Source: Tubulanus polymorphus (Eukaryota > Nemertea > Palaeonemertea > Tubulaniformes > Tubulanidae). Taken from it: 64,000 nt of DNA. Below the pieces are notes generated by a model, which saw only the letters and a list, made by a program, of their open reading frames with translations, had not been told where the DNA came from and did not search any database. Position 1 is the stretch's first letter. The number at the start of each line of letters is the position of its first letter. Position numbers and translations under genes: made by a program. The stretch covers positions 13,696,275-13,760,274 of the forward strand of contig NC_134032.1 of the NCBI RefSeq assembly GCF_964204645.1. Direction: 5' to 3'. Positions 1 through 52,095 of this stretch are shown in pieces.

Positions 1-2099
1 GATAGGTACGGGTTTTCAATAATTACACTTCTACTCACATACTGCAGCACTAAAATACCAAGTTCACCACATATTGTCTCAGTAGGGGTCGATTCTGTAG
101 GTGATTCTGTATCCATCTTACTAACATGGTACTGAACATAGAATAAGAGAGTCTTTACGAATTTATTTTCAAACAAAGAAACCAATAGGATGGATTTCGA
201 ATTTATTGCAATTCTACTCACATTCTGCAGTACATGGATGCAATGCATACCAGAAATAGTCTTGGGGGTTGATTCCGCAGCACTTGGAATCCATTTCACA
301 CGGCATTGACAACTGAAAATAAAATCAAAGATTCATTTTGCATTTATTCTCAAACTTAGAAAACAAAAGGGAGAATTTTCAAATTACACGTTTCTCCTCA
401 CATTCTGTGGCATTTTGTCACATGAATAATCTGTTTGTGAATAGATGATGATATCGCACCTCATCTGAAAGAAACAAATAAATGAAAAATACACACTTCA
501 ATCAGATGATTAATAATTTCTGTTAAAACAAAATTGATTTCGGTCTGAATACAAACCACATTTCTATGGTAATCAACAATGGACAGTAAGAGTCGGGGGC
601 TGCTGCTGCTGCTCAGGCCAGGTCAAAATGACGTTCTTTATGGACTTGTTCATTACGAAGAGAGGATCAACCTTTTACATGATGTTGAACTGAAAATAAA
701 ACGAATCATTTTTCATTAATTTTCAAGCATAGAAACCAATAGGAAGATATTCCAGTTTCACACTTTTCTACTCACATTCTACAGCACTTGGATATCAAGT
801 TTAATAAATACATTTTAAATTCAGAAACTGACGAGAAGGATTTTCCAATATTACACTTCTACTCACATTCTGCAGTACTAAAATACCAAGTTCACCAAAT
901 ATTGTCTCAGCAGGGGTCGATTCTGTAGGAGATTCTGTACTAATCTTACATGGTACTGAAAATGGAATAAGAGTCACTTAGAATTTCTTGCAATTCAACT
1001 CACATTCTGCAACACTTGGATGTAATGCATACCAGACAGTCTCACTTGGGTAGATTCTGCAGCACTTGGAATCTATTTCAAATGGCAATGAACTGAAAAT
1101 ATAATGAAAGATTCATCACAAATATATTTTCACACCTATAAAACAAAAGTGGGTCCAAGATTACACATTTTTTCTCACATACTGTAACACTCCGATGCTG
1201 AGTTCACCAATCTCTAACTGATGGTAGATTCCAAACACTTGCATATCAACGTTGATCAGACAGCGTCTCACCAGTAACAGATTCTGCAGCACCCTGAATC
1301 CAATTGTGGAATTTGTGAACCATTCTACACCAGACATTTCTAAATCAGTACAAAATTATATAGAAGGTGAGTATTAGCTAAAAGTGGCGGCCAAAAGCGG
1401 GCATAATTAATGATGGATATCAAACTTATATGATTTACTTGGAATCAATGTCACATAAATGATCTGTTTGTGAATAGATGATGATATTGCACCTCATCTG
1501 AAAGAACACAAATAAATGAAAAATACACTTCAACACATGATTAATGATTTCTTTAAAAGAAAATTGATTTCGGTCTGAATACAAACCACATTTCTATCGT
1601 AATCAACAATGGACAGTAAGAGTCGGGGGCTGCTGCTGCTGCTGCTCAGGCCAGGAAGATATTCCAGTTTCACATTTTTCTACTCACATTCTACAGCACT
1701 TGGATATCAAGTTTACCAGAAAGTGTTTCCCTAGGGGTAAATTCTGTAGCACTTGGAATTCATCTCTCATAGGAATGAACTGTAAATATAATGAAAGACT
1801 CATTTTTCACACCTTGTTAACTAAATGGTGGATTCTGAATTTCCATTTAAAAATTCCTTCTCACATTCTGTAGTGCTTAGATGCTGAGTTCACCAGTCAA
1901 AGTCTCCCCGACGATTGATTCTACAATACTTTGATATGAAAGTTGCTAAGACAGCTTCTCACCAGTGACAGATTCTGCAGCACTCTGAATCCAATTGTGG
2001 AATTGTGAATGATTCCACACCAGGCATTTCTAAATGAGTACAAAATCATATAGAAGATGAGTATTAGCTAAAAGTGGCGGCCAAAAGAGGACATAATTG

Positions 2100-4310
2100 T
2101 TAATGGATATCAAATTCATATATGATTTACTTGCAATCAATGTCACATGAATGATTTGTTTGTGAATAGATGATGATATTGCACCTCATCTGAAAGAAAC
2201 AAATAGATGAAAAATACACACTTCAAAAGATGATTAATAATTTCTTAAAGATGGAATTGAATTTCGGTCTGAACACAAACCAGTTATATTTCTATCACAA
2301 TCAACAATGGACTGTAAGTGTCGAGGGCTGCTGCTGTTAAGGTCCCATTGATCAAAATAAAGCTTTCATGCTTTCATGGTACTGAACTGAAAATATGAAA
2401 ATAAAAGGAAAGATTCCTAATAAATACATTTTCAAATTAAGAAACCGATAAGTAGGGCTTTTTCCAATAATAACACTTCCACTCACATACTGCAGTACTG
2501 AAATACCAAGTTCACCACAGATTGTCTCAGTAGGGGTCCATTCTGTAGGACATTCTATTTACATCTTGGTACTGAACATAGAATAAGAGTCTGCATGCAT
2601 TTCATTTTCAAACATAGAAACAAATAGGATGGATTTCGAATTCTTTGCAATTCTACTCACATTCTACAGCACTGGGGATAGATTTTGTAGCACTTGAAAT
2701 CCATCTTTCACAGGAATGGACTGTAAATATAATGAAAGATTCATTTTCACACCTTGTAAACAAAAGGGTGGATTCTAAATTTGCAATTTAACATTTCTTC
2801 TCACATTCTGTAGCACTTGGATGCTGAGTTCACCAGACAAAGTCTCCCTGACAATTGATTCTACGATACTTAGACATAAAAGTTGATCAGACAGCCTCTC
2901 ACCAGTGACAGATTCTGCACACTCTGAATCCAATTGTTGAATTTGTGAATGATTCTACACCAGGTTTTTCTAGATAAGTACAAAATTATATAGAAGGCGA
3001 GTATTAGCTAAATGGGGCAGCCAAAAACGGGCATAATTGATTATGAATATCAAATTCATATATGATTTACTTGCAATCAATGTGGCATGAATGGTCTGTT
3101 TGTGAATAGATGGTGATATTGCACCTCATCTGAAAGAAACAAATAGATGAAAAATACACACTTCAATCAGATGATTAATAATTTCTTTAAAATGAAATTG
3201 AATTTTGGTCTGAACACAAACCAGTTATATTTCTATCATAATCAACAATGGGCTGTAAGTGTCAAGGGCTGCTGCTGTTGAGGTCCCATTGATCAAAATA
3301 AAAATCTCTGTTGACTTGAAAGAATCAGCATCTTTCATGGAATTGAACTGAAAATCTGGAAATAAAAGATAAATACATTTTCAAATTTAGAAACAGATAG
3401 GGAGGATGGATTTTCCAATAATTACACTTTTACTCACATCTATACTGCAGTACTAAAATACCAAGTTCATCGCACATTGTCTCAGTAGGGGTCGATTCCG
3501 TACTTGAAATCTAAACATGGCAATGAACTGAAAATAAAATGAAAGATTCATTTTGAATATATTTTCAAACTTAGAAAATAAAAGGAAGAGTTTTTAATTT
3601 CTAATTTTACACATTTCTCCTCACATTCTGTGGCACTTCCATGCTGAGTTCCTCAGACAGTCTCACTGAGGGTCGAGTCTACAATAGTTGCATATTGTTG
3701 ATCAGTCAGCGAGTTGCAAGTTGATCAGCTTCTCACCAGTGACAGATTCTGCAGCACTCTTGAATCCAATTGTGGAATTTGTGAACGATTCTACGTTACA
3801 CCAGGCATTTCTAAATCAGAACAAAATTGTATAGAAGGCGAGTATTTGCCAAAGAGGAAGCCAAAAATGGGAATAATTGATAATGGCTGATATCAAAATA
3901 TGCTTTACTTTATCGGAATCAATGTTGAAGGAATGATCTGTTTGTGAAGAGATGTTGAGAGAAGATATTTCAGCATCTAAAAACACAAAAGAGATGGAAA
4001 ACTCATTTCTAAAAATAATTGATGACTGCTTTAAAAGAAAATTGAATTTTGGTCTGAATATACATACCGCTTATATTTTGATTGTAATCAATGATGAACT
4101 GTAAGTGTCAGGGTCTGCTGCTGCGCGGACTAGATCAAAATTGATGTTCTTCATGGACTTGTTCATTTCTTAGAGGATCAACCCTTAACATGGTGTTGAA
4201 CTGAAAATAAAATAAATCATTTTTCATTAATTCATTTTCAAACATAGAAACCAATAGGGAGATATTCCAGTTTCACACTTTTCTACTCACATTCTGCAGC
4301 ACTTGGATAT
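2100..4310. repeat. Higher-order duplication, copy 1
   Basis: This stretch matches 6480-8715 almost base for base over about 2.2 kb at an offset close to 4.38 kb. Paired landmarks are the AGGTCCCATTGATCAAAATA segments near 2341 and 6717 and the GAGTATTTGCCAAAGAGG segments near 3840 and 8229. The high identity compared with other modules shows the array was also amplified in blocks of several modules, more recently than the single modules. Confidence 0.7.
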
Positions 4311-6061
4311 CAAGTTCACCAGAAAGTAGGGGAAAATTCTGTAGCACTTGGAATACATCTCTAATAGGAATGAACTGTAAATACAATGAAAGATTCATTT
4401 TTCACACCTTGTAAACGAAATGGTGGATTCTAAATTTCCAATTAAACATTTCTTCTCACATACTGCAGCACTCCGACGCTGAGCTCACCAGTTTCACTGA
4501 AGGTTGATTCTACAATACTTTGATATCAAAGTTGATCAGACAGCGTCTCACCAGTGACAGATTCTGCAGCACACTGAATCCAATTGTGGAATTTGCGAAC
4601 GATTCTACACCAGGCATTTCTAAATCAGTACAAAAATATATAGAAGGTGAGTATTAGCTAAAAGTGGTGGCCAAAAGCGGGCATAATTGATAATGGATAT
4701 CAAACTTATATATGATTTACTTGGATTCAATGTCACATGAATGTTCTGTTTGTGAATAGATGATGATATTGCACCTCATCTGAAAGAACACAAATAGATG
4801 GAAAATACACTTCAAAAGATGATTAATAATTTCTTCAAAATGAAATTGAATTTCGGTCTGAATACAAACCACTTATATTTTCATCATAATCAACAATGGA
4901 CTGTAAGTGTCAAGGGCTGCCAGTGTTCAGGTCCCATGGATTGAAATAAAAATCTCTGTTGACTTGAGAGAATTAACCTCTTTCATGGTACTGAACTGAA
5001 AATCTGAAAATAAAAGAAAAGATTCTCAATAAATACATTTTCAAATTCAGAAACCGATAGGGAGGATTTTCCAATATTACAATACTACTCACATTCTGCA
5101 GTACTAAAATACCAAGTTCACCACACATTGTCTCAGTAGGGGTCCATTCTGTAGGAGATTCTGTATCCATCTTGGTACTGAAAATGGAATAAGAGAGTCT
5201 TCATGAATTTATTTTCAAACATAGAAACAAATAGGATGGATTTCGAATTTATTGCATTTCTACTCACATTCTGCAGCACTTGGGATGCAATGCATACCAG
5301 AAATAGTCTTGGGGGTTGATTCCGCAGCACTTGGAATCCATTTCACACGGCAATGAAAACTGAAAATAAAATGAAAGATTCATTTTGAATATATTTTCAA
5401 ACTTAGAAAACATAAGGGGAGTTTATGATTTCCTAATTACACGTTTCTCCTCACATTCTGTATCACTACAATGCTGAGGTCACCAGTCTACAATAGTCGC
5501 ATGTCAAGTTGATCAGACAGCATCTCACCAGTGACAGATTCTGCAGCACTCTGATTCCAATTGTTGAATTTGTGAACGATACCACATCAGGCGTTTCTAA
5601 AGTACAAAATTATATATGGAAGATGAGTATTAGCTAAAAGTGGAAAAATTGGAATAATTGCTAATGGCTGATATCAAACTTTGAATGTGTTTTACTCACT
5701 AGGACTCAACGTCAAATGAATGTCTGTTTGTGACGAGATATTGAGAGAAAAGATTTCAGCATCTAAATACATAAAATAGATTTAAAAAACTCCTTTCTAA
5801 AAAGATGATTGATAATTTTGGTGTGAATACATACCACTTATAATTTCGATTGTAATCAACAATGGACTGTAAGTGTCAGGGCTGCTGAAGCTGCTGCAAG
5901 CTAAATCAAAATGATGTTCTTCATGGACTTGTTCATCGCATAAAGGATCGATCTTTTACATGGTTTTGAACTGAAAATAAGATAAAACATACTCTTTTCA
6001 AGTCATTTTGAAGCATAGAAACAAATAGGTTAGATTTCCAATTTGACACTTTTCTACTCAC

Positions 6062-6154
6062 ATTCTGAAGCGCTTGGACGTCAAGTTTACCAGACAGTGT
6101 TTCACAAGGGGTTGGATTCTGCAGCACTTGGAATTCATCTCTTATGGGAATGAA
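6062..6154 (-). other. Best-preserved exon-like module of the array
   Basis: On the minus strand this 93-base segment is preceded by a TTTTCAG acceptor and followed by GTGAGTAG, a near-consensus donor. It is open through 31 codons in phase 0 at both ends, so inclusion, skipping or duplication of it would keep frame. The peptide contains two variants of one motif (ending FQVLQN and VQALQN) separated by CETLSGKLD, so the module itself is an internal duplication. No domain is recognised. It could be a real exon or a chance survivor in a decayed repeat. Confidence 0.4.
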
Positions 6155-6479
6155 CTGAAAATACAATGAAAGATTCATCGTGAATACATTTTCACACCTA
6201 GGAAACAAAATGGAGTATTTCAATTTCCAATTTTACACATTTTTTCTCACATTCTGCAGCACTTTGATGCTGAGCTCACCAATCTCTAACTGATGGTAGA
6301 TTCCAAAATACTTGCATATCAACATTGATCAGACAGCGTTTCACCAGTTACAGATGCAGCACCCTGAACCCAATCGTGGAATTTGTGAATGATACCACAT
6401 CAGGTTTTTCTAGATGGGAACAAAATTATATAGAAGGTGAGTATGAATCAACAATGCCAGCCAAAAATGAGCATGATTA

Positions 6480-8715
6480 ATAATGGATATCAAAGTCATA
6501 TATGATTTACTTGGAATCAATATCGCATGAATGGTCTGTTTGCAAATAGATGATGATATTGCACCTCATCTGAAAGAAACAAATAGATGAAAAATACTCT
6601 TCAAAAGATAATTAATAATTTCTATAAACTGAATTTGAATTTCGGTCGGAATACAAACCAGTTAAATTTCTATCATAATCAACAATGGACTGTAAGTGTC
6701 AAGGGCTGCTGCTGTTAAGGTCCCTTTGATCAAAATAAAACTCTTGTCGACTCGCGACAATCAAACTCATTCATGGTACTGAACTGAAAATATGAAAATA
6801 AAAGGAAAGATTCCTAATAAAAACATTTTCAAATTAAGAAGCCGATAGGTAGGGCTTTTTCCAATAATAACACTTCCACTCACATACTGCAGTACTGAAA
6901 TACCAAGTTCACCACAGATTGTCTCAGTAGGGGTCCATTCTGTAGGAGATTCTATTTACATCTTGGTACTGAACATAGAATAAGAGTCTTCATGCATTTC
7001 ATTTTCAAACATAGAAACAAATAGGATGGATTTCGAATTCTTTGCAATTCTACTCACATTCTACAGCACTGGGGATAGATTTTGTAGCACTTGAAATCCA
7101 TCTTTCATAGGAATGAACTGTAAATATAATGAAAGATTCATTTTTCACACCTTGTAAACAAAAGGGTGGAATTTGCAATTTAAAAATTTCTTCTCACATT
7201 CTGTAGTACTTAGATGCTGAGTTCACCAGACAAAGTCTTCCTGACAATTGATTCTATGATGCTTAGATATGAAAGTTGATCAGACAGCGTCTCACCAGTG
7301 ACAGATTCTGCACACTCTGAATCCAATTGTTGAATTTGTGAATGATTCTACACCAGGTGTTTCTAGATAAGTACAAAATTATATAGAAGGCGAGTATTAG
7401 CTAAATGGGGCAGCCAAAAACGGGCATAATTAATAATGGATATCAAATTCATATATGATTTACTTGCAATCAATGTCGCATGAATGATCTGTTTGTGAAT
7501 AGATGATGATATTGCACCTCATCTGAAAGAAACAAATAGATGAAAAATACACACTTCAATCAGATGATTAATAATTTCTTTAAAATGAAATTGAATTTTG
7601 GTCTGAACACAAACCAGTTATATTTCTATCATAATCAACAATGGACTGTAAGTGTCAAGGGCTGCTGCTGTTGAGGTCCCATTGATCAAAATAAAAATCT
7701 CTGTTGACTTGAGAGAATCAGCATCTTTCATGGAATTGAACTGAAAATCTGGAAATAAAAGATAAATACATTTTCAAATTTAGAAACAGATAGGGAGGAT
7801 GGATTTTCCAATAATTACACTTCTACTCACATACTGCAGTACTAAAATACCAAGTTCATCACACATTGTCTCAGTAGGGGTCGATTCTGTACTTGAAATC
7901 TAAACATGGCAATGAACTGAAAATAAAATGAAAGATTCATTTTGAATATATTTTCAAACTTAGAAAAGAAAAGGGAGAGTTTTTAATTTCTAATTTTACA
8001 CATTTCTCCTCACATTCTGTGGCACTTCCATGCTGAGTTCCTCAGACAGTCTCACCGAGGGTCGAGTCTACAGTAGTTGCATATTGTTGATCAGTCAGCG
8101 AGTTGCAAGTTGATCAGCTTCTCACCAGTGACAGATTCTGCAGCACTCTTGAATCCAATTGTGGAATTTGTGAACGATTCTACGTTACACCAGGCATTTC
8201 TAAATCAGAACAAAATTGTATAAAAGGCGAGTATTTGCCAAAGAGGAAGCCAAAAATGGGAATAATTGATAATGGATGATATCAAAATATGCTTTACTTT
8301 ATCGGAATCAATAATGAAGGAATGTTCTGTTTGTGAAGAGATGTTGAGAGAAGATATTTTAGCATCTGAAAACATGTAATAGATGGAAAACTTATATCTA
8401 AAGATAATTGATGACTGCTTTAGAATAAAATTGAATTTTGGTCTGAATATACATACCACTTATATTTTGATTGTAATCAACGATGGACTGTAAGTGTCGG
8501 GGGCTGCTGCTGCTGCGGCTGCTCGGACTAGATCAAAATTGATGTTTTTCATGGACTTGTTCATTACCGGTTCTTAGAGGATCAACCTTTAACATGGTGT
8601 TGAACTGAAAATAAAATAAACCATTTTTCATTAATTCATTTTCAAACATAGGAACCAATAGGAAGATATTCCAGTTTCACACTTTTCTACTCACATTCTG
8701 CAGCACTTGGACGTC
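6480..8715. repeat. Higher-order duplication, copy 2
   Basis: Second copy of the 2100-4310 block. Differences are mostly single bases and short indels. It ends in a truncated module near 8700, where the sequence jumps from one module start directly into the tail of another. Confidence 0.7.
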
Positions 8716-9869
8716 TGTAGCACTCTGATTCCAATTGTGGTATTTGTGAACAATTCTACACCAATAAGTACAAAATTAAATAGAAGGTGAGTATTAGCTA
8801 AATGTGGCGGCCAAAAGCGGGCATAATTTATAATGGATATCAAACTTATTTATGATTTACTTGGAATCAATGTTGTATGAATGTTCTGTTTGTGAATAGA
8901 TGCTTATATTGCACCTCATCTGAAAGAACACAAATAGATGAAAATTACTTTTCAAAAGTTGAGTTATAATTTCTTTAAAATGAAATTGAATTTTGGTCTG
9001 AATACAAACCACTTATATTTCTAATCAACGATTGACTGTAAGTGTGAAGGGCTTCCAGTGTTCAGGTCCCTCGGATTAGAATAAAAATCTCTGTGGATTT
9101 GCGATTATCAACCTCTTACAACCTGGTACTGAACTGAAAATAAGTGAAAATAATAAATACATTTTCAAATTTAGAAAGCGATAGGCAGGATTTCTAATCT
9201 TACACGTTCTGCAGCACTAAAATCCCAAGTTCACCAAACATTGTCTCAGTAGGGTCGATTCACTAGGAGTTTCCATCCATTTTATTTGGTACTGAACATA
9301 GAATAAGAGAGTCTTCATGAATTAATTTTCAAACACAGAAACAAATAGGATGGATTTGGAATTTCTTGCAATTCTACTCACATTCTGCAGTACATGGATG
9401 CAATGCATACCAGACAGTCACTTGGGTAAATTCTGCAGCACAATGGATGTTCACCAGACGGTGAGTTTCACTGGGGAAAGACTCTGTAGTACTTGCAATC
9501 CTTTTTTCATGGCGCTGATCTATGAAATAGAATTCAAAATTCTTCATGAATACATTTTCAAACATAGAAACCAATACGGAGGATTTCCAATTTTACACAA
9601 TTCTACTCCTCTCCTCACATTCTACAGCACTTGGACATCAAGTGCACCAGAAAGTGTTTCACTAGGGGTAGATTCTGCAGTACTTGGAATCCATCTCTTA
9701 TGGGAATTAGCTGAAAATATAATGAAGGATTCATCAAGATTATATTTCCATATCTTGAAGACAATAGCAAGCATTTTCAATTTCCAATTTTACACATTTC
9801 TTTTCACATTCTACTAAATTCATTTTTCAAACAGTTAGGGCGGATTTCCTATCTCCAGTTTGACTCAGT

Positions 9870-10440
9870 TCTACTCACATTATGCAGCACTTTGAAGTCA
9901 AGTCCACCAGACAGTGTCTCGCTGGGGATAGATTCTGCAGTACTTGGATGTCAAGTTCACCAGACAGTGTCTCACTGGTGGTAGATTCTGCAGCACTTGA
10001 AAGTCAAGTTCACCAGACAGTGTCTCACTGGGAGTTGATTCTGCAGTACTTGGATGTCAAGTTCACCAGACAGTGTCTCACTGGGGGTAGATTCTGCAGC
10101 ACTTGGATGTCAAGTTCACCAGACAGTGTCTCACTGGGGGTTGATTCTGAGCACTTGGATGTCAAGTTCACTGGACAGTGTCTCAATAGGGGTAGATTCT
10201 ATAGCACTTGGATGTCAAGTTCACCAGACAGTGTCTCACTGGGGGTTGATTCTGAGCACTTGGATGTCAAGTTCACCAGACAGTGTCTCACTGGGGGTTG
10301 ATTCTGAGCACTTGGATGTCAAGTTCACTGGACAGTGTCTCAATAGGGGTAGATTCTGCAGCACTTGGATGTCAAGTTCACCGGACAGTGTTTCACTTGG
10401 GGTAGATTCTGCATCAGTCAAGTTCACCGCACAGTGTCTT
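9870..10440. repeat. Homogeneous 54-60 bp tandem repeat at array edge
   Basis: About ten near-identical units built on GCACTTGGATGTCAAGTTC and GACAGTGTCTCACTGGGGGT. They are the central part of the exon-like module of 1-9830, amplified without the flanking splice-like borders and intron-like spacers. Some units lack the CA of CTGCAGCAC and read CTGAGCAC, giving a 54 versus 60 base alternation. Reading frames run through it on both strands because of the repeat; none is accepted as a gene by itself. Confidence 0.85.
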
Positions 10441-11170
10441 ATTTAGAACAAATTCTGTACTTCGGATGTCTCATCAGCGTTGATTGCATCATCAGAAATT
10501 TCACAATTTGCAATTTTTCGCCGTGAATGAAATAAACGGAAGAGAAATCATGTAATAAAATCACAATCAATAAATATCCCAAGACTTTATAAGTGAACAG
10601 TAAAACTAAGTCAAGTTTGAATCCTTTAGCGCTAGAAGTAAGTCTCAAATATACAAAATGTCTGAATATCTGAAAAAGCCGACAATATGGATCGACAGAA
10701 CATTTTGAGACGTGCATATTTTTAGCAGTTTTAAAACAAGTAAAAAGCATCACTCTGGTACATCCCATCCCAGGAATTGTCAAAATTTCTGACTGTTAAG
10801 TGTCAGTTCTTATAAATCTTGAGTTTTATTCCAACGAAAATACATTACACTGAGGCCACAATTTTGAATTGGATCACATAAAATATTCAAATATTTCTCC
10901 CTATGATTTTTATCCGTTATAACTTAGAAATTTCGAATATTCATCTAACATTCCAAATTCCTCGTCCGAGCTAAACTTATTCCAGTGGTTTACAAAGACG
11001 GCCGACACCTCTTTCTTTCTGTTTTGTTCTTTTTTGCGCCCGTGAATTACGCTTAAACATGTTCGAGGTGATTTTTTCAAACTGTTTTAAGGTGCGTCCC
11101 CGCAGACAACTGAGGCTAGGATAGAAATGCCCGTATCCCTTGACGCACAGGACTACCCTATCGAGTAAGT
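10441..11170. other. AT-rich stretch, no feature seen
   Basis: No coding potential, tandem repeat or paired terminal repeat was recognised here. A 114-codon minus-strand frame at 10439-10783 has no recognisable domain or neighbouring splice structure that supports it. Confidence 0.4.
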
Positions 11171-11470
11171 GATCATACACACGATACTCTCAGGCCCCGG
11201 AGTCCGCGGTTCAGTAAAGGAGCGTCCGATGCCCTGATGCTATCGTCCTCCCCGGGCGGCCTTTCGCCATCCCTGTCACCGAGCATATTCACTTTAAGGG
11301 CTACCACCCCCCTTACCGCCACCGCTATTTTTCTTCCCGCCGACTCGCAACCACAGAAATTAAGTTTAGCTCGGAAAAGGAAGAACCCGAATGGATTCAA
11401 TCGGATTTATACGTGTGGTCAGGTTTGGGTTCGTATCCCGAGGCACCGAGCACGACGTATTTCGATGTGA
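11170..11470. other. GC-rich, CpG-containing island
   Basis: The stretch is much more GC-rich than its surroundings and contains a short GGTTCGTATCCC segment near 11430 that resembles a pol III B box. Frames of 75-77 codons exist on both strands but neither resembles a known domain. It may be a fragment of an old mobile element or a promoter-like island; the sequence does not decide. Confidence 0.3.
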
Positions 11471-11874
11471 CCAGTTTGTCACTAACGTCACTGATTCTGA
11501 ATAAGTTCCCGAAGTGAGATTAGAAATGAATCAGCGAAAATAGAGAATTTTGAAATCATAAGAATAAATATCTGCATTTTTATGTATCCAAAATAGAAAC
11601 CAGTATTATTAGACCTCGTGATTGAACAAATGAATTTTGAATTTTGATAGTTATAAATTGGAAAAAGGTTTAGAATATTGAGCTATTTGACAACCACACG
11701 TGTGTCGATGTATTTAGTTAGAATTCACTCAAAAACAGTCAAAACACCTCATCGACAACTGGTCAAATTGTTGTCTTCACAGCATATCTTTTGATTCCTA
11801 GGTATTCGAAATCAAAAGGATTCAAACCTGACAGAGAAATTTATATCAATGATTCTTTGAATGATTTTACTCAC

Positions 11875-11982
11875 CTTCTGCAGCACCTGGATGTCGAGTT
11901 TTCCAGTTCATCAGAGTTTAGCATCACACTGGAGGTAGATTCTTTAGCACTTTGGATGCCAGGTCAATCAGCAGTAAGTTCA
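11875..11982 (-). pseudogene. Outlying exon-like module with a stop
   Basis: Minus-strand segment bounded by a CCACCAG acceptor and a GTGAGTAA donor, 108 bases, phase 1 at both ends if read in frame with the exon at 12073-12147. The first codons give NLLLIDLASKVLKNLPPV and then an in-frame TGA. The second half is clearly the 1-10 kb module (CTGCAGAAG before the donor). The LLID start resembles the exon at 23910-23984, which links that distant exon to the array. The stop suggests a broken exon, or that this frame is not the one used. Confidence 0.35.
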
Positions 11983-12072
11983 CTGGTGGAATAGAAATAG
12001 AAAAAAAGCTTAATAGAATTCAATATCTTGGAAATCTGGAAATTTTCACCAGATTTCACTGCATATACTCAC

Positions 12073-14949: not shown

Positions 14950-17900
14950 AAACTAAAGCTGCGATCACACTAAGCGTTTTTGGCCTCAGCCAAATTTTAG
15001 CACTTTTAGCCTCTTTACACGGGTACCAGTTGCAATTCAAACACAATCATTTATCTCTATACTTTGGCTCGAGCCTGGTCAGTCGTTTAAGGCCCGGGCC
15101 AAATTTAGCTCGAGTCTGATCCATGCCAATTTGGCCCGGGCCAAATTGTCTCCGTGTGATCGCAGCTATAAGCCGCGATCACATGAGCATTTCTAGCCCG
15201 GGCCAAATTTGGCCTAGAACAACTGTTCACATGGGTGCCAAATGGGCTGAGCCTGTTTGGCCCAGGCCAAAGAGGTTGGACCAGGCCCGAGCCAAATTTT
15301 AGCACGAGACTACCGTGTGAACAGTTGTCCCGGGCCAAAAACGCTCATGCGATCGCGGCTATAACTTAGCACGAGACAATAGCCACGATCACACGAGGAT
15401 TTTTAGCCCGGGCCAAATTTGGCCCAGAACAACTATTCAAACGGATGCCAAATGGGCCGAGCCTGTTTGGCCCAGGCCAAAAAGGTCAGACCAGGCCCGA
15501 GCCAATTTTCAGCACAAGACACCCGTGTGAACAGTTGCCCCGGGCCAAAAACGCTCGTGGGATCGCGGCTATAATCTAGCATGAGACAATAGCCACGATC
15601 ACACAAGCATTTTTGACTCAGGCCAAATTTGCCCGAGCCTGTTTGGCCCGGGCCAAATTTGACCGGACCAAAAACATTGGACCAGGCCGGAGCCAAATTT
15701 TAGCATGGGACAAATGATTGCGTTTGAATTACAACTGGTTCAGGAAATGACCGACTTTGTTTCTGTGTGATCGCAGCAATAAGCCGCGATCACACGAGCA
15801 AATTTGTCCTGTTCACACGGGAACCAGTTGCAATTCAAATGCAATCATTTGTCACGAGCTAAATTTTAGCTCGGGCCTGGTCAGTCGTTTTAGGCCCGGG
15901 TCAAATTTGGCTTGAGTCTTGTCTGAGTCAATTTGGCCCGGGCCAAATCACCTCCGTGTGATCATAGCTATTAGCCGCGATCACAGGAGCATTTTTAGCC
16001 CGGGCCAAATTTGGCCCAGAACAACTGTTCACACGGGTGCCAAATGGGCCGAGCCTGTTTGGCCCAGGCCAAAAAGGTCGGACCAGGCCCGAGCCAAATT
16101 TTAGCAAAAGACACCTGTGTGAACAGTTGTCCCGGGCCAAAAACGCTCGTGCGATCGCGGCTATAATTTAGCACGAGACAATAGCCACGATCACACGAGC
16201 ATTTTTGGCTCAGGCCAAATTTGCCCGAGCCTGTTTGGCCCGCGCCAAATTTGACCGGACCAAAAACAATGGATCGGGCCCGAGCCAAATTTTAGCATGG
16301 GACAAATGATTGCGTTTGAATTACAACTGGTTCAGGAAATGACTGACTTTGTTTCTGCGTGATCGCAGCAATTAGCCGCAATCACACGAGCAAATTTGTC
16401 CTGTTCACACGGGTACCAGTTGCAATTCAAACGCAATCATTTTTCACATCTAAACTTTGGCTCGGGCCTGGTCAGTAGTTTTAGGCCCTCGCCAAATTTG
16501 GCTCGAGTCTAATCTGAGCCAATTTGGCCCGGGCCAAATCGTCTCCGTGTGATCGCGGCTCAAACATTTGTCTCGTGCTAAAACTTGGCCCAGAACGAGG
16601 GTGCCACATCGGCCCGAGCCTGTTTGGCTCGGGCCCATTTTTCAGACAGGCCTGAACCAAATTTAGCACGAGACATTAGCCGCGATCACACAAGTATTTT
16701 TGGCCCAGAACAACTGTTCACTCGGATGACAAATGGGCCCAAGCCAAACAGGCTCGGGCCGATGTGGCACCCTCGTTCTGGGCCAAGTTTTAGCACGAGA
16801 CAAATGTTTTTTGGCCCAGGCCAAAAAGGTCAGACCAGGCCCGAGCCAATTTTTAGCACAAGACACCCGTGTGAACAGTTGCCCCGGGCCAAAAACGCTC
16901 GTGCGATCGCGGCTATAATCTAGCATGAGACAATAGCCACAATCACACGAGCATTTTTGGCTCAGGCCAAATTGCCCGAGCCTATTTGGCCCGGGCCAAA
17001 TTTGACCGGACCAAAAACATTGGACCAGGCCCGAGCCTTAGCATGGGACAAATGATTGCGTTTGAATTACAACTGGTTCAGGAAATGATCCACTTCACTT
17101 CTGTGTGATCGCAGCAATAAGCCGCGATCACACGAGCAAATTTGCCCTGTTCACACGGCTACCAGTTGCAATTCAAACGCAATCATTTTTCACATCTAAA
17201 CTTTGGCTCGGGCCTGGTCAGTCGTTTTAGGCCCGGGCCAAATTTGGCTCGAGTCTAATCTGAGCCAATTTGGCCCGGGCCAAACCATCTCCGTGTGATC
17301 GCGGCTCAAACATTTGTCTCGTGCTAAAATTTGGCCCAGAACGAGGGTGCCACATCGGCCCGAGCCTGTTTGGCTCGGGCCCATTTTTCAGACAGGCCTG
17401 AACCAAATTTAGCACGAGACATTAGCCGCGATCGCACAAGTATTTTTGGCCCAGAACAACTGTTCACTCGGATGACAAATGGGCCCAAGCCTGTTGGGCC
17501 CAGGCCAAAGAGGTCGGACCAGGCCCGAGCCAAATTTTAGCACGAGACTACAGAGTGAACAGTTGTCCCGGGCCAAAAACGCTCATGCGATCACGGCTAT
17601 AACTTAGCACGAGACAATAGCCACGATCACACGAGCTTTTTTAGCCCGGGCCAAATTTGGCCCAGAACAACTATTCAAACGGGTGCCAAATGGGCCGAGC
17701 CTGTTTGGCCCAGGCCAAAAAGGTCAGACAAGGCCCGAGCCAATTTTTAGCACAAGACACCCGTGTGAACAGTTGCCCCGGGCCAAAAACGCTCGTGCGA
17801 TCGCGGCTATAATCTAGCATGAGACAATAGCCACAATCACACGAGCATTTTTGGCTCAGGCCAAATTGCCCGAGCCTGTTTGGCCCGGGCCAAATTTGAC

Positions 17901-28395: not shown

Positions 28396-31300
28396 GTAGA
28401 TTAAATGAAATATACTCATGTCGTATAATTGATTTATGTTCAGACAATGCAGACAGAGTTAGACGGGTTACACCTGGAGAATCAGCGCAAAGAATCGAAC
28501 CTCGATCAGCTCGGAACGGAGAAATACCGTCTGATGGACCGAATCAAAATCGACACGAGCACTTTCGCTAAAGAGCGCCGCCTATTGACCGAGGAGATCA
28601 TCCAATTGAAGAAAGATAATAACGCGTTGGAACGCGAACTATCGCAGAGAGACGCTCAGATCGGTTTGCAACGCGACGAGTTGGAGAAAAACTCGACCGC
28701 GATTCGAGCCTCGGACGAGAGAGTTACTCTACTCCGTAACCAGGTAACAGGCAATAATCATTACTCTACTCCGTAACCAGGTAACAGGCAATAATCAATC
28801 GATGTTACAATGAATCAATTAGCTGTTGATCTGTAGGTTAATTAATTACCCATCAATTAGTCTGTAAATGAAAATCAATTGGATAGCTAATTACTCATCA
28901 ATGAGTGACTAAATGATAATCAATTGTGGATTGCTAATTACTCAATGTTAGTAAGGTGAATTGACCTTGCTTAAGTCGGACAATCTGGCGAAAGTGATCC
29001 AAGTTAAGTGAAAGTTTTGTTTAAGAAACGAAAGAAAAATGTCAGGAAGTCGGAAAATAATTTTGTTTTGTCTGAATAAGTCAAAAGTCAAAGTTGGCCA
29101 TATCTGAGTTAGGTGAGATTTACTGTATGTGAAATTATATTGTGAATGTCAATTATAATTGTGCATATTTATTCGTAGCTGGATCAAAGAATCGAACAAC
29201 ACAAAATGACGCAGTTAGCTTTAGAAGAGAAGAGAGCGGAATGTTTGAGAGTCGAAGCTCAACTGCGAGAAATAGAGGAGAAATACTACAGCAGTAGTTC
29301 AGCGTTAGCCGATAAAGCTACGAAAGATCTGAGGGTAAGCGATGAATCTCTTGTCCCACCCCATTAGAATTTCATACACACCGCTGCCAACCTCTGCATT
29401 CGGCAACGAATTGAATCGGTAACATTTGAATGAAATATGTTTGAATTATCAGAAATGAAAGTTATGATAACCATTGAAGAAACACTATTCCGTGTTGTAA
29501 CGATATAGTAGAGAATCCCACACTGATAAAACGAAAGCCTATAACCTAATAGTCATCTTGATGACAATGAGGTTATAGTCGAAACGTCAAATGAATAAAA
29601 ACACATCAGCTATATAGGAAACATTTTTCGGACTTCATCTTTCGTTTCATCAGTGTGGGATTCTCTACTATAGAAAGTTATGATCTTCGGTTACATATTT
29701 CTCATTTCCTACACATCAAACGTCTGAATCACATCAGTATTTTTTGGGACAAAATACTGAAAATCAGGAACAGTTGGCAGCTGCGCATACCCGGTACTCC
29801 CTCGGCAGTGCACTGGTCCACTAGGGCAGAGTTAGTCTCATGATGTCATCAGGTTCAAATCCCTGTGAGGAAGGATCTGTCTATGAAGGCAGAGTCTCAT
29901 GACGTCCCTATAAAGGAGGTTATATTGACTAGAACAGTCTCAATATGTCATCAGGTTTGAATCCCTGCTGAGGGAGGATGTGTCTACTAGGGGCAGCAGT
30001 TTGTACTGTGACAGAATCTCACGATGTCATCAGGTTTGAATCCCTGCTGAGGGAGGATGTGTCTACTAGGGGCAGTTTGTACTGTGACAGAATCTCACGA
30101 TGTCATCAGGTTTGAATCCCTGTTGAGGGAGGATGTGTCTACTAGGGGCAGCGGTTTGTACTGTGACAGAATCTCACGATGTCATCAGGTTTGAATCCCT
30201 GCTGAGGGAGGATGTGTCTACTAGGGGCAGTTTGTACTGTGACAGAATCTCACGATGTCATCAGGTTTGAATCCCTGCTGAGGAAGGATGTGCAGGGGTT
30301 TGTACTCGGGGCCTATTCTTGCGATGTCATCGGGTTAAAAATATCGAAATTCTAAATTGTCTAATTTTTCGACAGGACGAAATTCGAATGTTGCGACAGA
30401 AAATGAAGGAGACAGAAATGGCAGCCGATCAGGATCGGTATCTACGCACTAAACTGACCGATGACAGCAGCCATCTTGTACAAGAGAACGCTTTACTGAA
30501 TCAACAAGTTATCGAACTAACTCGAACTATCGATCGCGTAAGAATCTGGGAAAAACTTTTTTTCAAATCACAAAGTTAGGCGAAATCTCTTAATTTAAGA
30601 TTTGAGATGTCATTTATTTGACGAGATCGATGAAATTTGAATGATTTATTTCGATCTGATTCGATATTTTGTAGGAGCGTGATTTGAGAGAGAGTCAGGA
30701 GACTCGACGCAGCGCCGATTTCACCGAGTTATTGTCGGCTAAAGACGGTCAGAAACATTTACAACTGGAGATGAATCAAATGAGGGACGAGTTACAACGC
30801 GAACGAGAACTCAGTAAACACTACCGAGAACAGGTACGTAAGGTCGCGTGGAGCTCAAAACCTTTTATACCGACTAAAAGCTGCTACAGGGTCCCTATAG
30901 ATCGGTCATTCCTGGATATAAGGAGTCCCTACAGATCGGTCATTCCTGGATATAAGAAGTCCCTACAAATCGGTCATTCCTGGATATAAGGAGTCCCTAC
31001 AGATCGGTCATTCCTGGATATAAGAAGTCCCTACAGATCGGTCATTCCTGGATATAAGGAGTCCCTACAGATCGGTCATTCCTGGATATAAGGAGTCCCT
31101 ACAGATCGGTCATTCCTGGATATAAGGAGTCCCTACAGATCGGTCATTCCTGGATATAAGGAGTCCCTACAGATCGGTCATTCCTGGATATAAGGAGTCC
31201 CTACAGATCGGTCATTCCTGGATATAAGGAGTCCCTACAGATCGGTCATTCCTGGATATAAGGAGTTAACAAGCAGGGTCCCTATAGATCGGTCATTTCT

Positions 31301-34321: not shown

Positions 34322-37300
34322 TTACGATACAGTCTCGGGTCCGTGAGTCCAGTTCGGAGGTCGTTTCTCTAAGAAAGCTTTGATTCCTTCCTGACCATCT
34401 TTCAAGGACAGATTCGAAACCATAACTTGCTCAGCAGTTCTATAGAAAATATGATTTTTTAGATTTTAACAACGACCGACGGGCGGGAAGAGGGCAGGAG
34501 TAGGAGAGGGGTTTACCTGTAAGCTGATTCCCGATCGAGTCCGACCTGGGAGTAGAATGTAGCTTTACCCAACGCGACGACCATTCGACTCGTTTCACAA
34601 ATACGATCGGCGATTTTCATCGTCTGAAATATCGTGAAAAATATCCATTTATCGCAAATGAATAAAATATCAACGACTTCTGTAATATCAATATTCGTAT
34701 TTCACATATACCTCTGCATCTAATCTATCATTAGGGACGACTTTGTTGACCAAACCATGAATTAAAGCTTCTAAAAAAGAATTTCAACAATTTCGTCATC
34801 ATTAAAGTCTAATGATGAGCGGTAAATGGCGCAAGTTCGATTTAATACCAACCCTGAGCTGTAATCGGTGTACCGGTCAGTAACATCTCCATGGCAACCT
34901 TACGCGGTACAGCGCGAGCGATGGCGACACCTGGCGTCGAACAGAATAAACCGATATTCACTCTTAAAAAAAAAAAACAGAAAAAAAGCGCTACTGTACA
35001 AAACCGCTGAAATAAATACTACAGGACTAAACTAAACATGGCAATTCAGAGGCGTAGTGTTGCAGAGATATGTGACTCTTAAGACCAAAAGTGGTCTTAA
35101 CTTAATCGGGTCTTAACTTTTTAGATTGTTTATAGAACCAAAATGAACTTAGACTGGTCTTAAGTTGTTAGATTTGTTAGGATTAAGATGAGCCTAGACT
35201 GGGCTTAAGTTAAAGGATTAAGATGAGCTTTAAACTGGCCTTAAATCTTAAAACCATGACTGCATGCCCTCGACTGAATTTCGGACTATATCTTCGGAAG
35301 GATTTCGGGGTAGTAGTGTCTACGACAGCCACTGGGGGTCGCTAGTGTGAATACTAACCCCGGAGTCGCGAATTGAGCTGATTCCGAAACGACGGCCAAA
35401 TCACAACTAGCGACGAGTTGACAACCGGCGGCTGTGGCTAAACCACGTACCTGAGCTATAACTGGAACCGTCACATCCTGTCAATAGATGAACATAAAAT
35501 ACAACACTATCGGTCTTCTAAACACCCTCCCCCTAATCACCACCCCCTAATGAATCATGAATCATGGCAGAATACCTGGACTAACTTCATTAATTCCGTA
35601 CATCTCTGAAACAATTTCACGTGGAATCCTTTCCCTGATTCTGAAGTCTGAAAATAATTTTTTTTTAAATATATCATATTGAATATCAACCTCCAGGGTT
35701 CTATCTAAGGAATGAAAGCCACTTGCCCGGGGGCAAGCATATCTGGAATTTCGCTTGCCCCCTCCAAAAGCCACTTGCCCTTCACAGGCAGTCCGATTGG
35801 TGGCACTATCATCCGTTGTATCAAGTGGGGAAAAGGCTTTGTGACAACTTTTGCACGACTAGCCCTGCGGACAAGTGATAATGATTACCTACTTGCCCTG
35901 ATGAGAATATACTTGTCCCGGGCGATCGGACAAGTGCTTAGATCGGACCCAGGCCTCAGTCAAGCATGTAAAGGGCAGAGCAAGAGACTAGGAAAAGTAT
36001 ATCGCTTTAAGGATGCATTCTAGGGTGGCTATTTCAACATAATTTCGAAACATCTCTTCAAAATTGAGGTCTGTTTAGACATAAATCACCCGTCCATTTA
36101 TTAATCAAGGGAGCACATGAAATTTCAAAGTTGTGATAGACGTCTCAAAAGATCTATCGCCAGACCTGAGTACCTGATATCTCTAATTTGGGAAATTTTC
36201 ACCAAAATTGAGACTCAAATAGTTGTTTGATTGAAAATGAACCGATGAAATAAAAACCCGACCGATTTCGAGAGTAGGACACATATTAGTACAATATCCA
36301 TACTCAAACGTGGTAAACAGATAATAAGATAAAAACCCACAATGCACTAGTTACACCTGAAGATGATGTCTAGGGTGTCTATTTTATATTCTAGATTTTT
36401 TGAATAAATAAATTCTCGATTCTAAAATTCTTTTAACTTGCACATAGTGAGTTTTTATCTTAGTACACACAAATTATGATATTTTGGGGGAAGTTGGGCT
36501 GTTAAAATTAAACTACTCTTGAATAGCAGTTGTACTGGCGTCTGCTTTGCTAGATCCCCGGCCCTAAATCTCGGATATCTCAAATATTTACGATTACCAA
36601 TTCTCTGAGATCGTGCCCCGATGAAAAAACATTCTCTTCAGCTTTGATAATGATCACTCTCAATTCCTCGCTGTCCATATTCTTCCGTATGTCGGCGATT
36701 AACGCCTCGATCATCGCTATCGACAACGCGTTCCTAAAATACAACAATACCATCCATCAATCAACCAACAAGATCATTGTCTGTGCAGATCGGTCATTCC
36801 TGGATATAAGGAGTTTACAAGCAGGGTCCCTACAGATCGGTCATTCCTGGATATAAGGAGTTTACAAGCAGGGCCCCTACAGAACGGTCATTCCTGGATA
36901 TAAGGAGTTTACAAGCAGGGCCCCTACAGATCGGTCATTCCTGGATACAAGGAATTTTCAAGCCAGGTCCCTATAGATCGGTCAATCCTGGATATAAGGA
37001 GTCCCTACAGATCGGTCATTCCTGGATATAAGGAGTTTTCAAGTCAGGTCCCTATAGATCGGTCATTCCTGGATATAAGGAGTTTTCAAGCCAGGTCCCT
37101 ATAGATCGGTCAATCCTGGATATAAGTTGTCCCTACAGATCGGTCATTCCTGGATATAAGGAGTCCCTACAGATCGGTCATTCCTGGATATAAGGAGTTT
37201 TCAAGTCAGGTCCCTATAGATCGGTCATTCCTGGATATAAGGAGTTTTCAAGCCAGGTCCCTATAGATCGGTCAATCCTGGATATAAGTTGTCCCTACAG

Positions 37301-39771
37301 ATCGGTCATTCCTGGATATAAGGAGTCCCTACAGATCGGTCATTACGGCATATAAGGAGTCCCTACAGATTGGTCATTCCTGGATATAAGGAGTTTTCAG
37401 TGTCGTAAGGCGCTTATATCGCTATTAGCAACCAGTTTGACAACCAGTGGATGCATTGTTGAACCGAAATCTAAGGAATTTTGTGATGAGTGCTGACCTT
37501 TTCTTAGGGTTATTCAAAGTGATAGTTCGGATGCCATTTTTTTCAGTTGTCAAGACGATGGGTTCTTGTTTCGTAGTTTCGGCAGTTGACATCGTTCTGA
37601 CTGCGCTTGTGGGACCGGCCGCCCGACTTGCCGGGCCTGCCGCCCGATACCAACCTCCAACAACTACCTAGATATTCACAAAAAACACAGCTTTTAACAA
37701 GGACTGTTTAGCAATCCCCGGAAATAGTGAAAAATGAATTAACAATGGACGTTTTTGTTCAACTGCGTGTCGTCCATTCTAATGTCTATTTCAACCTGAC
37801 TTGAGAGCATTCCGGGTGGCCTAACTCGCTAATCTCTGGTAGTACATACCTGATAAAGGTCTTAGTGGGACCAGAAAGGACAGGCAGTCGACCTAAACCA
37901 TCACTTTTTAATCCATTTGCAACTGTATTGAAGGATATCCAAAAAGTCTTCACTGAAAGGGGTTAAATGAAGAGAAGTGACTCCATGATTTGAAAGTTTA
38001 ACAATATGTTTCCATGCCTACATACCAAATTTCAGTTGGTAGGCATGGAAACATATTGTTAAACTTTCAGATCATGGAGTCTCTTTTCTCTCATGAACCC
38101 CTTTCAGTGAAGACTTTTTGGATATCCTTCAATACAGTTTCAAATGATTAAATAATTTTGATTTAGGTCCACTGCCAGTCCTTTCCTGGTCTTACTAAGA
38201 CCTTTATCAGGTATGTACTACCAAAACTGAGCGAGCTAGGCCACCAGGAATGCTCTCAAGTCAGGTTGAAATAGACATAAGTCAATGATCAATGGAAAAT
38301 TTGATCATTACTTGTCGCTCTCCCCCTAGACTAGTAGAATGATGATGTCAACTTTGAATGTGGCTTTCCAGGCAATGTGTAGTAACAAGTTGAAATAGAC
38401 ATATGAAGTATCTAATTATCAGATGTTGTAAATGTAAAGGACCACGTCTTGGGGTCCCCTTATTACCGAGATGACGTAATTTACCAAGATGAACCGAGAT
38501 GACATATTTATTTATTCCTAATCGATTTTTAACAATTGAAATCATATTATATCAGTAATTAATACCTTCTAGAGTCATACTTTTCCGGATATACATATTT
38601 ATTTATTCCTTATCGATTTTAACAATTGAAATCATATTATATCAGTAATAAATACCTTCTAGAATCATTTTTTTCCGGATATTTTGTAAAAAAAACTTTG
38701 ACTTCAAATACGTCATCTCGGTTAGCAATAAAATTTCAATGAATTTGATTGATCGATGATCTCATCTCGGTAAAGTTAAAAGTTATTTTTCTACAAAAAT
38801 ATCCGACAAAATATGTAAAATATGACTCCAGCAGGCATTTATTATTGATATTATATGATTACAAGTGTTAAAATCGGTAAGGAATAAATAAATATGTTAT
38901 ATTTCATGTCATCTCGGTTGATCTCGGTTCATTTCGGTAAATTACGTCATCTTGGAGGACCGCGTCTGGTATTCAGACTAAATGTGTTTCCTCGAACACT
39001 CAGGCTATTTTTACGACCCTGTAAACGGACGACACTAGCTATATTTACGACGTTTCATTCTGATTGGCTATTTCACGTTGCGCATGCGCACTAGGGTGCA
39101 TGACTTAGAAAAATCAAGAGTTAGAGAAAATAGAGCGGATAGAGCGAGACTCGAACCCGGGCCAGTAAATTACTAGCACAGCATCATACCACTAGACCAC
39201 CGAGCTCGCTGAAAACCACTCGAATGTTTTAACTAAATATAGCCTCACCTTACCCTAATCCTATCCCGAGGGGGTAAAACGGACCCTTACCCTAACCCTA
39301 AAACCCTCTGGACCCTCTTCTCACCCTCTTGACACTAATCCTCTCCTCTCTAGACCATAATCCTAAATTCAATATAAAACCGTCGTAAATATAGAATTTA
39401 CGACCGCTTTACGACGCCGTAATATAATATAGCCACTTTGTTCCTCGAAACTGCTCTTCTATTCAATGGCAACTCCTCTTCCTTTCAGTTTAACTCGCAC
39501 TCTCTCATTCCGTTGCCCTAGATGCCAAATATTGGCCATGCAACGTAGGTAACTAGAACTTGAACTTGAACTTGCTGCAAGTGCAAACAACCGGCGGTAC
39601 CATATTTTCATTGAATTGATTATTAAATCAATTTTATTTCGTCTAATTACACAACATTTCGAAGCGGTTTTTGACTCGAAAGATTCTTCGATAGTTCAGA
39701 CTTACATTGAATTTATCTACTTGAGTTGTCAAGCGCCTCAAACTTCGTAAACTCGCGGAGAAAAAAGACAT
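34322..39771 (-). CDS. ECHDC3: Enoyl-CoA hydratase domain-containing protein 3, mitochondrial
   Basis: Nine exons, all with GT-AG borders and matching phases: 39771-39706, 37667-37498, 36733-36598, 35647-35576, 35477-35359, 34962-34853, 34770-34712, 34623-34517, 34439-34322 (TAA). The sum is 957 bases, 318 residues, close to the ~300 of the family. The start [17 protein letters not shown] is basic and hydroxylated with no acidic residue, as expected for a mitochondrial presequence. The crotonase fold is clear: [24 protein letters not shown] (first oxyanion-hole segment), [20 protein letters not shown] (second), [29 protein letters not shown] and the C-terminal [13 protein letters not shown]. 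The two glutamates used by true enoyl-CoA hydratases are not at the usual places (GCQ instead of GCE, TPG instead of PE), as in this family generally, so hydratase activity is doubtful. Exon 2 carries a small repeat ([14 protein letters not shown]). Family known; partner and substrate unknown here. Confidence 0.95.
35050..35255. repeat. GTCTTAA-rich short inverted repeats
   Basis: TCTTAAGACC and GGTCTTAAC words repeat on both strands in the ECHDC3 intron between exons 35359-35477 and 34853-34962, forming several short hairpins. Probably an old foldback element; ends not defined. Confidence 0.5.
35700..35960. mobile_element. Dispersed repeat (CACTTGCCC element)
   Basis: Contains CACTTGCCC words in several copies and the segment CTACTTGCCCTGATGAGAAT ... 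CTTGTCCCGGGC ... GTGCTTAGATCGGACCC, which is found almost unchanged at 62462-62526 in a KDM1B intron. So two unrelated genes share pieces of one dispersed element. Confidence 0.7.
36786..37400 (+). repeat. Minisatellite of the ATCGGTCATTCCTGGATATA unit
   Basis: About sixteen units in the intron between ECHDC3 exons 2 and 3. Some units carry the extra segment AGTTTTCAAGTCAGGTCCCT. Several groups repeat as blocks (for example 36990-37120 and 37160-37290), showing higher-order growth. Same unit as 30880-31310, but here read in the antisense direction of its host gene. Confidence 0.95.
37788..38284. mobile_element. ~490-bp foldback element, copy 1
   Basis: Left end AATGTCTATTTCAACCTGAC and right end GTCAGGTTGAAATAGACAT are inverted, and almost the whole element is two complementary arms around a centre near 38025-38045 (TACCAAATTTCAGTTGGTA). 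A second copy is at 55619-56114. A further right end (GTTGAAATAGACATATG) lies near 38390. It sits in ECHDC3 intron 1 and has no coding capacity. Confidence 0.9.
38437..38972. mobile_element. ~530-bp foldback element (GACGTAATTTACC ends)
   Basis: GGACCACGTCTTGGGG, then CCGAGATGACGTAATTTACC at the left, against GGTAAATTACGTCATCTTGG and GGACCGCGTC at the right. The inner part also repeats: the TATTTATTTATTCCTAATCG segment near 38508 recurs near 38588 and, reversed, near 38880. Intron 1 of ECHDC3. Confidence 0.8.
39005..39470. mobile_element. Repeat-rich stretch with TTTACGAC inverted ends
   Basis: CTATTTTTACGACCCTGTAA / CTATATTTACGACG near 39005-39050 and TATAGAATTTACGACCGC / ACGCCGTAATATAATATAGC near 39395-39440 are inverted and share short words, suggesting an element that spans the tRNA-like segment at 39130-39212. 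A CCCTAACCCTAAAACCC run near 39290 is low-complexity filler. Confidence 0.4.
39130..39212 (-). mobile_element. tRNA-Gly-like sequence, probably SINE head
   Basis: Minus strand has TGGTCTAGTGGTATGATG, matching the A box and D arm of a tRNA-Gly type sequence, and GGCCCGGGTTCGAGTC, matching the T arm. The segment expected to form the anticodon stem and the acceptor stem does not pair, so it is not a functional tRNA. It lies in ECHDC3 intron 1. Confidence 0.6.
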
Positions 39772-43949: not shown

Positions 43950-44412
43950 ATTTTATGAGTTAGAGTTAACTCTGAACTCATGATCCAGTTCTACAGTTAT
44001 GAGTTTGAATTAACTCTGAACTCATTATCCAGTTCTACAGTTATGAGTTAGAGTTAACTCTGAACTCATGATCCAGTTTCACAGTTATGAGTTTGAATTA
44101 ACTCTGAACTCATGATCCAGTCCCACAGTTGTGAGTTAGAATTAACTCTGAACTCATGATCCAGTTCTACGAGTTTGAGTTGACGCTGAATTCATGATCC
44201 AGTTCTACAGTTGTGAGTTAGAGTTAACTCTGAAGTCAGGACCAAGTTCTACAGTTATGAGTTAGAGTTAACTCTGAACTCAGGATCCAGTTCTACGGTT
44301 GTGAGTTAGAGTTAACTCTGAAGTCAGGATCCAGTTCTACAGTTATGAATTAGAGTGAACTCTGAACTCAGGACCCAGTTCTACAGTTATGAGTTTGAGT
44401 TAACTCTGAACT
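43950..44412. repeat. ~44-bp tandem repeat (GAGTTAACTCTGAACTCA)
   Basis: About ten units of ATCCAGTTCTACAGTTATGA and GTTAGAGTTAACTCTGAACT. Each unit contains the self-complementary word GAGTTAACTC and one end of the palindromic MITE at 40490-40592, so the array was probably produced from such an element. Confidence 0.9.
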
Positions 44413-44581
44413 CAGGAAAAATTCATTTTGCGAATTATTCGTTCGTTCGTGCACATCGCAGTCCGAGAGAATCCGGAACAGCACACAACATACAGTATAC
44501 ACTTAGTAACCGAGTTGTGCTAAGGATTTCCATAACTTAATCAAAAATCTAGAAATTTTTTGAAAATAATTTGTTTTATCT

Positions 44582-51393: not shown

Positions 51394-51754
51394 ATTGGCG
51401 AACAATCATGATTTATGGTGTCAATATCTTGATTTCTGATTTATGTCAGTTGCTCCGCCTCCAGATGACAGATCATAAAATGACACGAAAAACAGACACA
51501 GAATAATGTTCACCATTCATTCGATATGAATCAATTTTCTAAAATTCATTATTTCATATATTTACAGTAAAATGTACACGAAAAAGATACTCTTACATGC
51601 AATTATGAATAATGCATGTAGATAATATGGCATTTGTATATTTTTATTTCATTCTGTGGTCTTGCAATGGCGAATATAACAAATTGATTTCTGTAAAGGC
51701 CCTCGGATCTTTCAGTGGATCCGCTCATATTGCCGAGTTAATATTGCCATATTA

Positions 51755-52095
51755 TCCAGTTCTACAGTAATGAGTTTGAGTTAACTCTGAACTCAGGATC
51801 CAGTTCTACAGTTATTAGTTTGAGTTAACTCTGAACTCAGGATCCAGTTCTACAGTTATGAGTTTGAGTTAACTCTGAACTCAGGATCCAGTTCTACAGT
51901 CATGAGTTTGAGTTAACTCTTAACTCAGAATCCAGTTCCACAGTTTGTGAGTTTGAGTTAACTCTGAATTCTTAATCCAGTTCTACGGTTGTGCTGAACT
52001 CAGGATCCAGTTCCACAGTTATGAGTTTGAATTAACTCTGAACTCTTAATCCAGTCCTACGGTTGTGAGCTAGAGTTAACTCTGGACTCAGGAAG
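51755..52095. repeat. ~44-bp tandem repeat, copy in duplication B
   Basis: About eight units of the same repeat as 43950-44412, with fewer copies and one truncated unit near 51990. The copy-number difference shows that the array changed length after the segmental duplication. Confidence 0.9.

Follow-up and report, generated by a model that had tools for sequence, protein, structure and literature searches.

A minus-strand tandem array of exon-like modules with kept splice borders in Tubulanus polymorphus

What does a long array of short modules represent when each of them appears to be bounded by a splice acceptor and a splice donor: a repetitive-exon gene, a spliced non-coding RNA, or a tandem repeat carrying the marks of one ancestral exon? 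The window, i.e., the whole stretch of 64,000 nucleotides analyzed here (C8:13696275-13760274 of the 267.8 Mb genome), raises this question at its left end, where a preliminary description had placed about 30 such repeats at 1-9830. A search profile was grown from one module (6062-6154) with its flanks and run with nhmmer on a region of 150 kb (C8:13610001-13760274). This search returned 363 module matches, all of them on the minus strand, covering 84 kb (C8:13624381-13708298). The presence of the array was thereby confirmed and its limits were revised, as it goes on leftward beyond the window to C8:13624381 and rightward to approximately 12024, the window hosting its last 12 kb (1..12024, minus strand). 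The number of about 30 repeats agrees with the 23 acceptors and 27 donors spanned by alignments in 1-9830. A whole-genome DNA search with window positions 6000-6400, in which 40 of 108 candidates were scored, gave at least 56 matches. All of those listed lie inside the array, and among them the full module together with its intron was matched nowhere else.

The module measures ~180 bp and is composed of an exon of mostly 89-95 nt and an intron with a median length of 90 nt. Its minus-strand consensus leads from the intron (GTGAGTAG...TTTTATTTTCAG) into the exon (TTCAATACCATG...GATTCCAAGTGCTGCAGAAT CTACCCCCAGTGAGACACTGTCTGGTGAACTTGACATCCAAGTGCTGCAGAAT) and ends on the donor GTGAGT. The second, inner half of the exon equals one unit of a 53-bp minisatellite seen at 9879-10413 (minus strand, 10.2 copies), the last copy of which adjoins a GTGAGTAG donor; the profile search revealed runs of this minisatellite at further places in the array. 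Modules are grouped in super-units of ~900 bp, which in turn are duplicated in multi-kb blocks of a single orientation. Besides the main exon, the super-unit contains a second exon type of 59 nt (6511..6569, minus strand; TTTCTTTCAG / GTAAAT) and a third of 68 nt (4552..4619, minus strand; acceptor TTTAG, donor GTGAGA), with the coordinates of both read by eye. The most upstream module (11831..12024, minus strand) shows the exon end CAGAAG / GTGAGTAA. Blocks of 5-6 kb recur at offsets of 10.1 and 20.9 kb with 97.7-98.2% identity (6.2 kb at 97.7%, 5.0 kb at 98.2%). These large, near-identical block duplications indicate that turnover of the array is continuing, which bears out the earlier proposal of an array in turnover. 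Head to tail in one orientation and homogenised via multi-kb block duplication, the array resembles macrosatellites and higher-order tandem arrays, from which it differs in the splice sites preserved, on one strand, at the borders of its modules.

The module borders had been described as consistently TTTTCAG and GTGAGT. Counts were restricted to copies whose alignment spans the border. Under this restriction, the acceptor reads AG in 163/167 and the donor GT in 158/166 cases over the whole array, and in window positions 1-9830 all 23 acceptors and all 27 donors carry AG and GT, respectively. The tandem duplication of modules with real-looking splice borders was hence borne out, and the AG and GT core of the described motifs was upheld; their remaining bases vary. 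Among 138 unique array copies, position -3 of the acceptor is C in 112, T in 18, and A in 8 copies and never G, and the sixth donor base of 137 unique copies is T in 92, A in 32, and G in 13. A looser count with extrapolated exon borders, which takes in minisatellite continuations and offset errors not sorted individually, gave GT behind 169/244 exon ends and AG in front of 161/236 exon starts. A strict donor context was counted 80 times over 76.8 kb inside the array versus once over 73.5 kb of flank, and a TTTTCAGTTC-like acceptor 88 times versus once in the same stretches. This excess of both contexts indicates that the borders are more than chance. Pairing of the border-spanning sites yielded 86 exons.

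Lengths of these 86 paired exons range from 82 to 196 nt, the commonest being 92 nt (27 exons) and 93 nt (18 exons), and division by three leaves remainders of 0, 1, and 2 in 27, 20, and 39 exons. Phase-0 open modules had been proposed on the example of 6062..6154 (minus strand), and this exon is indeed 93 nt long, preceded by AG, followed by GTGAGT and open, reading FIPIRDEFQVLQNPTPCETLSGKLDVQALQN; a 97% identical copy is located at C8:13691362-13691454. As a general rule the proposal failed (27/86). On the minus strand of the window, the exon at 39..131 (93 nt) is likewise open in phase 0 and that at 4291..4374 (84 nt) is open. The lengths of 222..312 (91 nt), 867..955 (89 nt), and 1688..1779 (92 nt) are not divisible by three, and the 92-nt exons at 5268..5359 and 9619..9710 contain a stop codon in the donor frame. 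Across 74 unique exons, the three sense frames are open in 26, 9, and 33 cases versus 29, 19, and 15 for the antisense frames. For the three codon positions, exon columns showed 9.5, 7.15, and 9.0 changes and intron columns 6.9, 6.7, and 6.8; the exons accordingly change faster than the introns, and do so without a codon rhythm. Furthermore, the minisatellite, within which ETLSGELDIQVLQN starts the frame at 10080-10029, has a period of 53 and not 54 bp, moving the frame at each copy. On the basis of lengths, frames, codon phase, and the 53-bp period, the array was judged non-coding, and the idea of a repetitive protein gene was not sustained. The array shares tandem exons and conserved borders with repetitive-exon protein genes, whereas it lacks their frame and their symmetric phase, with neither lengths generally divisible by three (27/86) nor a coding pattern over the codon positions.

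No match to known RNA families at gathering score was obtained in the window or in loci L001-L018, and no tRNA was found in the window. Among six chosen open frames compared with Pfam, only window 58064-58609 (plus strand) scored above cut-off, representing an exon that contains a zinc finger of the CW type (PF07496; 34.2 bits against a cut-off of 27.5); this exon runs into a 28-bp minisatellite at 58365-58505. Tandem repeats are present at further places: at 15171-17867, a ~210-bp unit with many TTTGGCC/GGCCAAA motifs forms two arrays, a 34/47-bp minisatellite (CAGATCGGTCATTCCTGGATATAAGGA) occurs at both 30891-31266 and 36786-37394, 6 kb apart, and one 44-bp minisatellite at both 43953-44414 and 51754-52091, 7 kb apart.

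Whether the borders are kept, as had been claimed, was evaluated by counting changes by parsimony on trees, with the expectation taken from base-matched columns. In the profile alignment (138 and 137 unique copies), the two bases of AG changed 1 and 3 times versus 6.5 and 10.0 expected, and those of GT 3 and 4 times versus 8.5 and 5.4. Acceptor position -4 changed 12 times versus 5.9 expected and position -3 nine times versus 8.6. A homology filter was then applied that demanded homologous sequence to either side of the border (129/166 unique copies for donors, 64/191 for acceptors). Under it, none of 104 other windows had as few changes as the donor hexamer, and none of 81 as few as the acceptor hexamer. 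Without this filter, the donor GT had 8 and 6 changes at a mean of 10.3, with 44 of 120 columns being as low or lower. The quietest 6-nt window after base correction was TGTGAG, overlapping the donor; before correction, the intron-internal GAAAAT was quieter than the donor. Among the module's 7 AG dinucleotides the splice AG ranks second for low change, and among its 11 GT dinucleotides the splice GT ranks third. The splice AG and GT thus changed less than comparable columns, in line with the claim, and we regard this as moderate evidence: the signal is present, and it is not overwhelming, since comparably quiet AG/GT dinucleotides and windows exist within the module.

The super-unit was analyzed in 54 copies out of 187 matches. 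The six sites delimiting its exons of 59, ~68, and ~93 nt had 0, 0, 0, 0, 0, and 1 changes, the AG and GT of both the 59-nt exon (6511..6569 type) and the 68-nt exon (4552..4619 type) remaining without any change over the 54 copies. An adjacent pair taken at random has on average 4.23 changes, and 21% of pairs have one change at most. Comparison of the nine best-scoring sense sites with 86 other GT/AG dinucleotides resulted in p = 0.0019, a value that depends on the splice matrices used and on a site list cut after the ranking had been seen. On the opposite strand, the strongest look-alike of a donor changed 9 times. Weak sites were those of a further exon-like unit, with its donor at 610, and of a decoy acceptor at 661 (4 and 5 changes).

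The CpG content separates the array from its surroundings, with a median observed/expected ratio of 0.44 within the array (81 bins, 11 of them exceeding 0.8) and of 1.26 and 0.95 in the flanks. At window 10.7 kb, a 1-kb bin of 1.18 lies between bins of 0.31 and 0.36. The CpG-intact block at 10501-11500 (1.03 and 1.17) is partly GC-rich, is located directly upstream of the array in the minus-strand sense, and may be considered a candidate promoter region. Related spacers elsewhere in the genome showed ratios of 0.89-1.0 in 7/7 measured. In animals with gene-body methylation, such a CpG pattern would be expected of an unmethylated promoter followed by a methylated body that is transcribed, and the depletion of the array is also compatible with a methylated silent repeat.

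The 53-bp half-module and a ~1.2-kb spacer, which in the dispersed loci lies between minisatellite blocks, have relatives on C1, C2, C3, C6, C10, and elsewhere on C8. Many of these relatives are ~1.7 Mb or less away from the end of a contig (C3 at 0.43-1.30 Mb, C6 at 0.64-1.60 Mb, C8 at 15.58-16.41 of 16.68 Mb, and C2 at 30.17 of 31.90 Mb), and others are internal (C10:8.46 and C8:11.88 Mb). Nine dispersed loci carry blocks of the 53-bp minisatellite in one orientation. The spacer follows the first exon of the array, where window 10.8-11.85 kb is an 84% identical copy of it (10819..11848, minus strand; C8:13707093-13708122). The order of upstream stretch, exon, spacer, and minisatellite is common to the array end and the dispersed loci, and the right end of the array joins a stretch colinear with this dispersed minisatellite-bearing repeat family. 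In the dispersed loci, the first block begins after TTTACAG (4/4 shown) or AATAG (3/3 shown), and an acceptor of this kind is missing from the border in L017 and in the other block type (9 starts shown). Border drift in copies elsewhere had been set beforehand as a test of the exon reading. The result was mixed, as a donor (GTGAGT or GTAAGC, the latter twice) is present in 6/16 and absent from 10/16 of the three-prime block ends shown. The older spacer copies L025-L027 had no module match at E 0.01 and are consequently silent on the borders. Four dispersed loci have a common left homology edge, CTGTTTACAGATTATAT. Locus L019 (C2:31863501-31873000) contains an inverted repeat (1245-2011 versus 6729-5967) of 93.9% identity. 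The family it belongs to (L019-L022) is characterized by ~770-bp inverted repeats ~4-5 kb apart, often near contig ends, each copy being filled with different minisatellites. At C3:434-759 kb, the downstream part of the dispersed element is repeated at ~44-kb steps with 98-99% identity, which suggests that a large segment close to the end of this contig has been duplicated in tandem.

Which reading accommodates these observations best? At roughly even odds (probability about 0.5), judged from the DNA, the array would represent the tandem amplification of a non-coding exon with short introns, i.e., a spliced non-coding array. A living or dying coding gene built of tandem 18-residue repeats (ETLSGELDIQVLQN...) is very improbable. 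Some modules are open and symmetric, such as 6062-6154 (two near-identical copies), and within exons the fewest changes fall on the second codon position; against this stand the exon lengths (59/86 not multiples of 3), sense frames no more open than antisense ones, the period of the minisatellite, and exons that outpace their introns. Only slightly less remote is a mobile element family with long inverted repeats and internal minisatellites, in which the exon look would stem from the element's own RNA or be incidental. The dispersed relatives do have, next to them, a 500-800 bp stretch in two inverted copies separated by several kb, yet no Pfam match was obtained in the three open frames tested from the dispersed elements, a limited comparison of their copies brought to light neither defined ends nor a target-site duplication, and the array is without those inverted repeats as far as seen.

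A far more serious competitor, which we hold possible at somewhat less than even odds, is an untranscribed macrosatellite or relic whose splice borders derive from one ancestral copy multiplied via unequal exchange, apparent constraint then being homogenisation and chance. The large recent block duplications, the other short module windows that are just as quiet, a CpG depletion as expected for a silenced repeat, and the dispersed block ends without a donor (10/16) all point this way. Against it, the tree counts, which allow for shared descent, still place AG and GT below base-matched columns, the acceptor positions -3 and -4 vary within splice rules, and the individual exons of the super-unit behave likewise. 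The spliced non-coding array that we favor would have originated from an exon and intron inside a dispersed minisatellite-bearing repeat, amplified into a tandem array. Its minus strand would be, or would have been, transcribed leftwards, perhaps from the CpG-intact block at 10.5-11.5 kb, and the predicted transcript would be spliced into a long non-coding RNA of many copies of the 53-nt motif, the ~160 usable donors and acceptors making many isoforms or circles possible. The splice sites, rather than the exon sequence, would be the part kept; the 53-nt motif might then function as a recurrent RNA domain, or the act of splicing might be what matters to the locus. The more specific version remains tentative, and we rate it a shade below the relic: a putative single non-coding RNA gene, derived from a minisatellite repeat enriched at chromosome ends and comprising well over 100 short exons in tandem. 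Its splice sites would be held by selection, its exon sequence would drift, and splicing (through products, circles, or a chromatin effect) would be the function.

Among known systems, the closest organization is that of FIRRE, to which no sequence relation is claimed. Its repeated domain RRD is reported to provide 7/13 human and 11/23 mouse exons and to be rare outside its own locus (PMC4820808), and its many exons are combined into many isoforms and circles (PMC5910558; for background, see PMC7734150). The array, as a DNA sequence, resembles FIRRE as so described in being a non-coding locus with exons that are copies of one repeat, with intact splice sites in 86 paired exons. It differs by its ~90-nt exons and ~90-nt introns, with more than 160 alignable sites in 84 kb, and by its repeat not being local to one locus, as half-module and spacer have relatives elsewhere in the genome. 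That the exons would serve as RNA domains as in FIRRE is, by analogy, an even bet. Human lincRNAs are reported to be constrained at their splicing signals and only little in the cores of their exons, a pattern not witnessed in Drosophila (PMC4245815). The array would be alike in that its constraint would lie mainly at splice signals; the lincRNA comparison was made between species and over many genes, whereas ours is among paralogous copies within one array.

If the array is transcribed, it would offer dozens of paralogous exons in one gene for measuring the pull of splicing separately from that of coding, and would document how a minisatellite, together with its flanks, turned into a repeat-exon RNA. 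If it is untranscribed, it would stand as a warning that tandem arrays can hold long-lived splice signals that gene predictors call exons.
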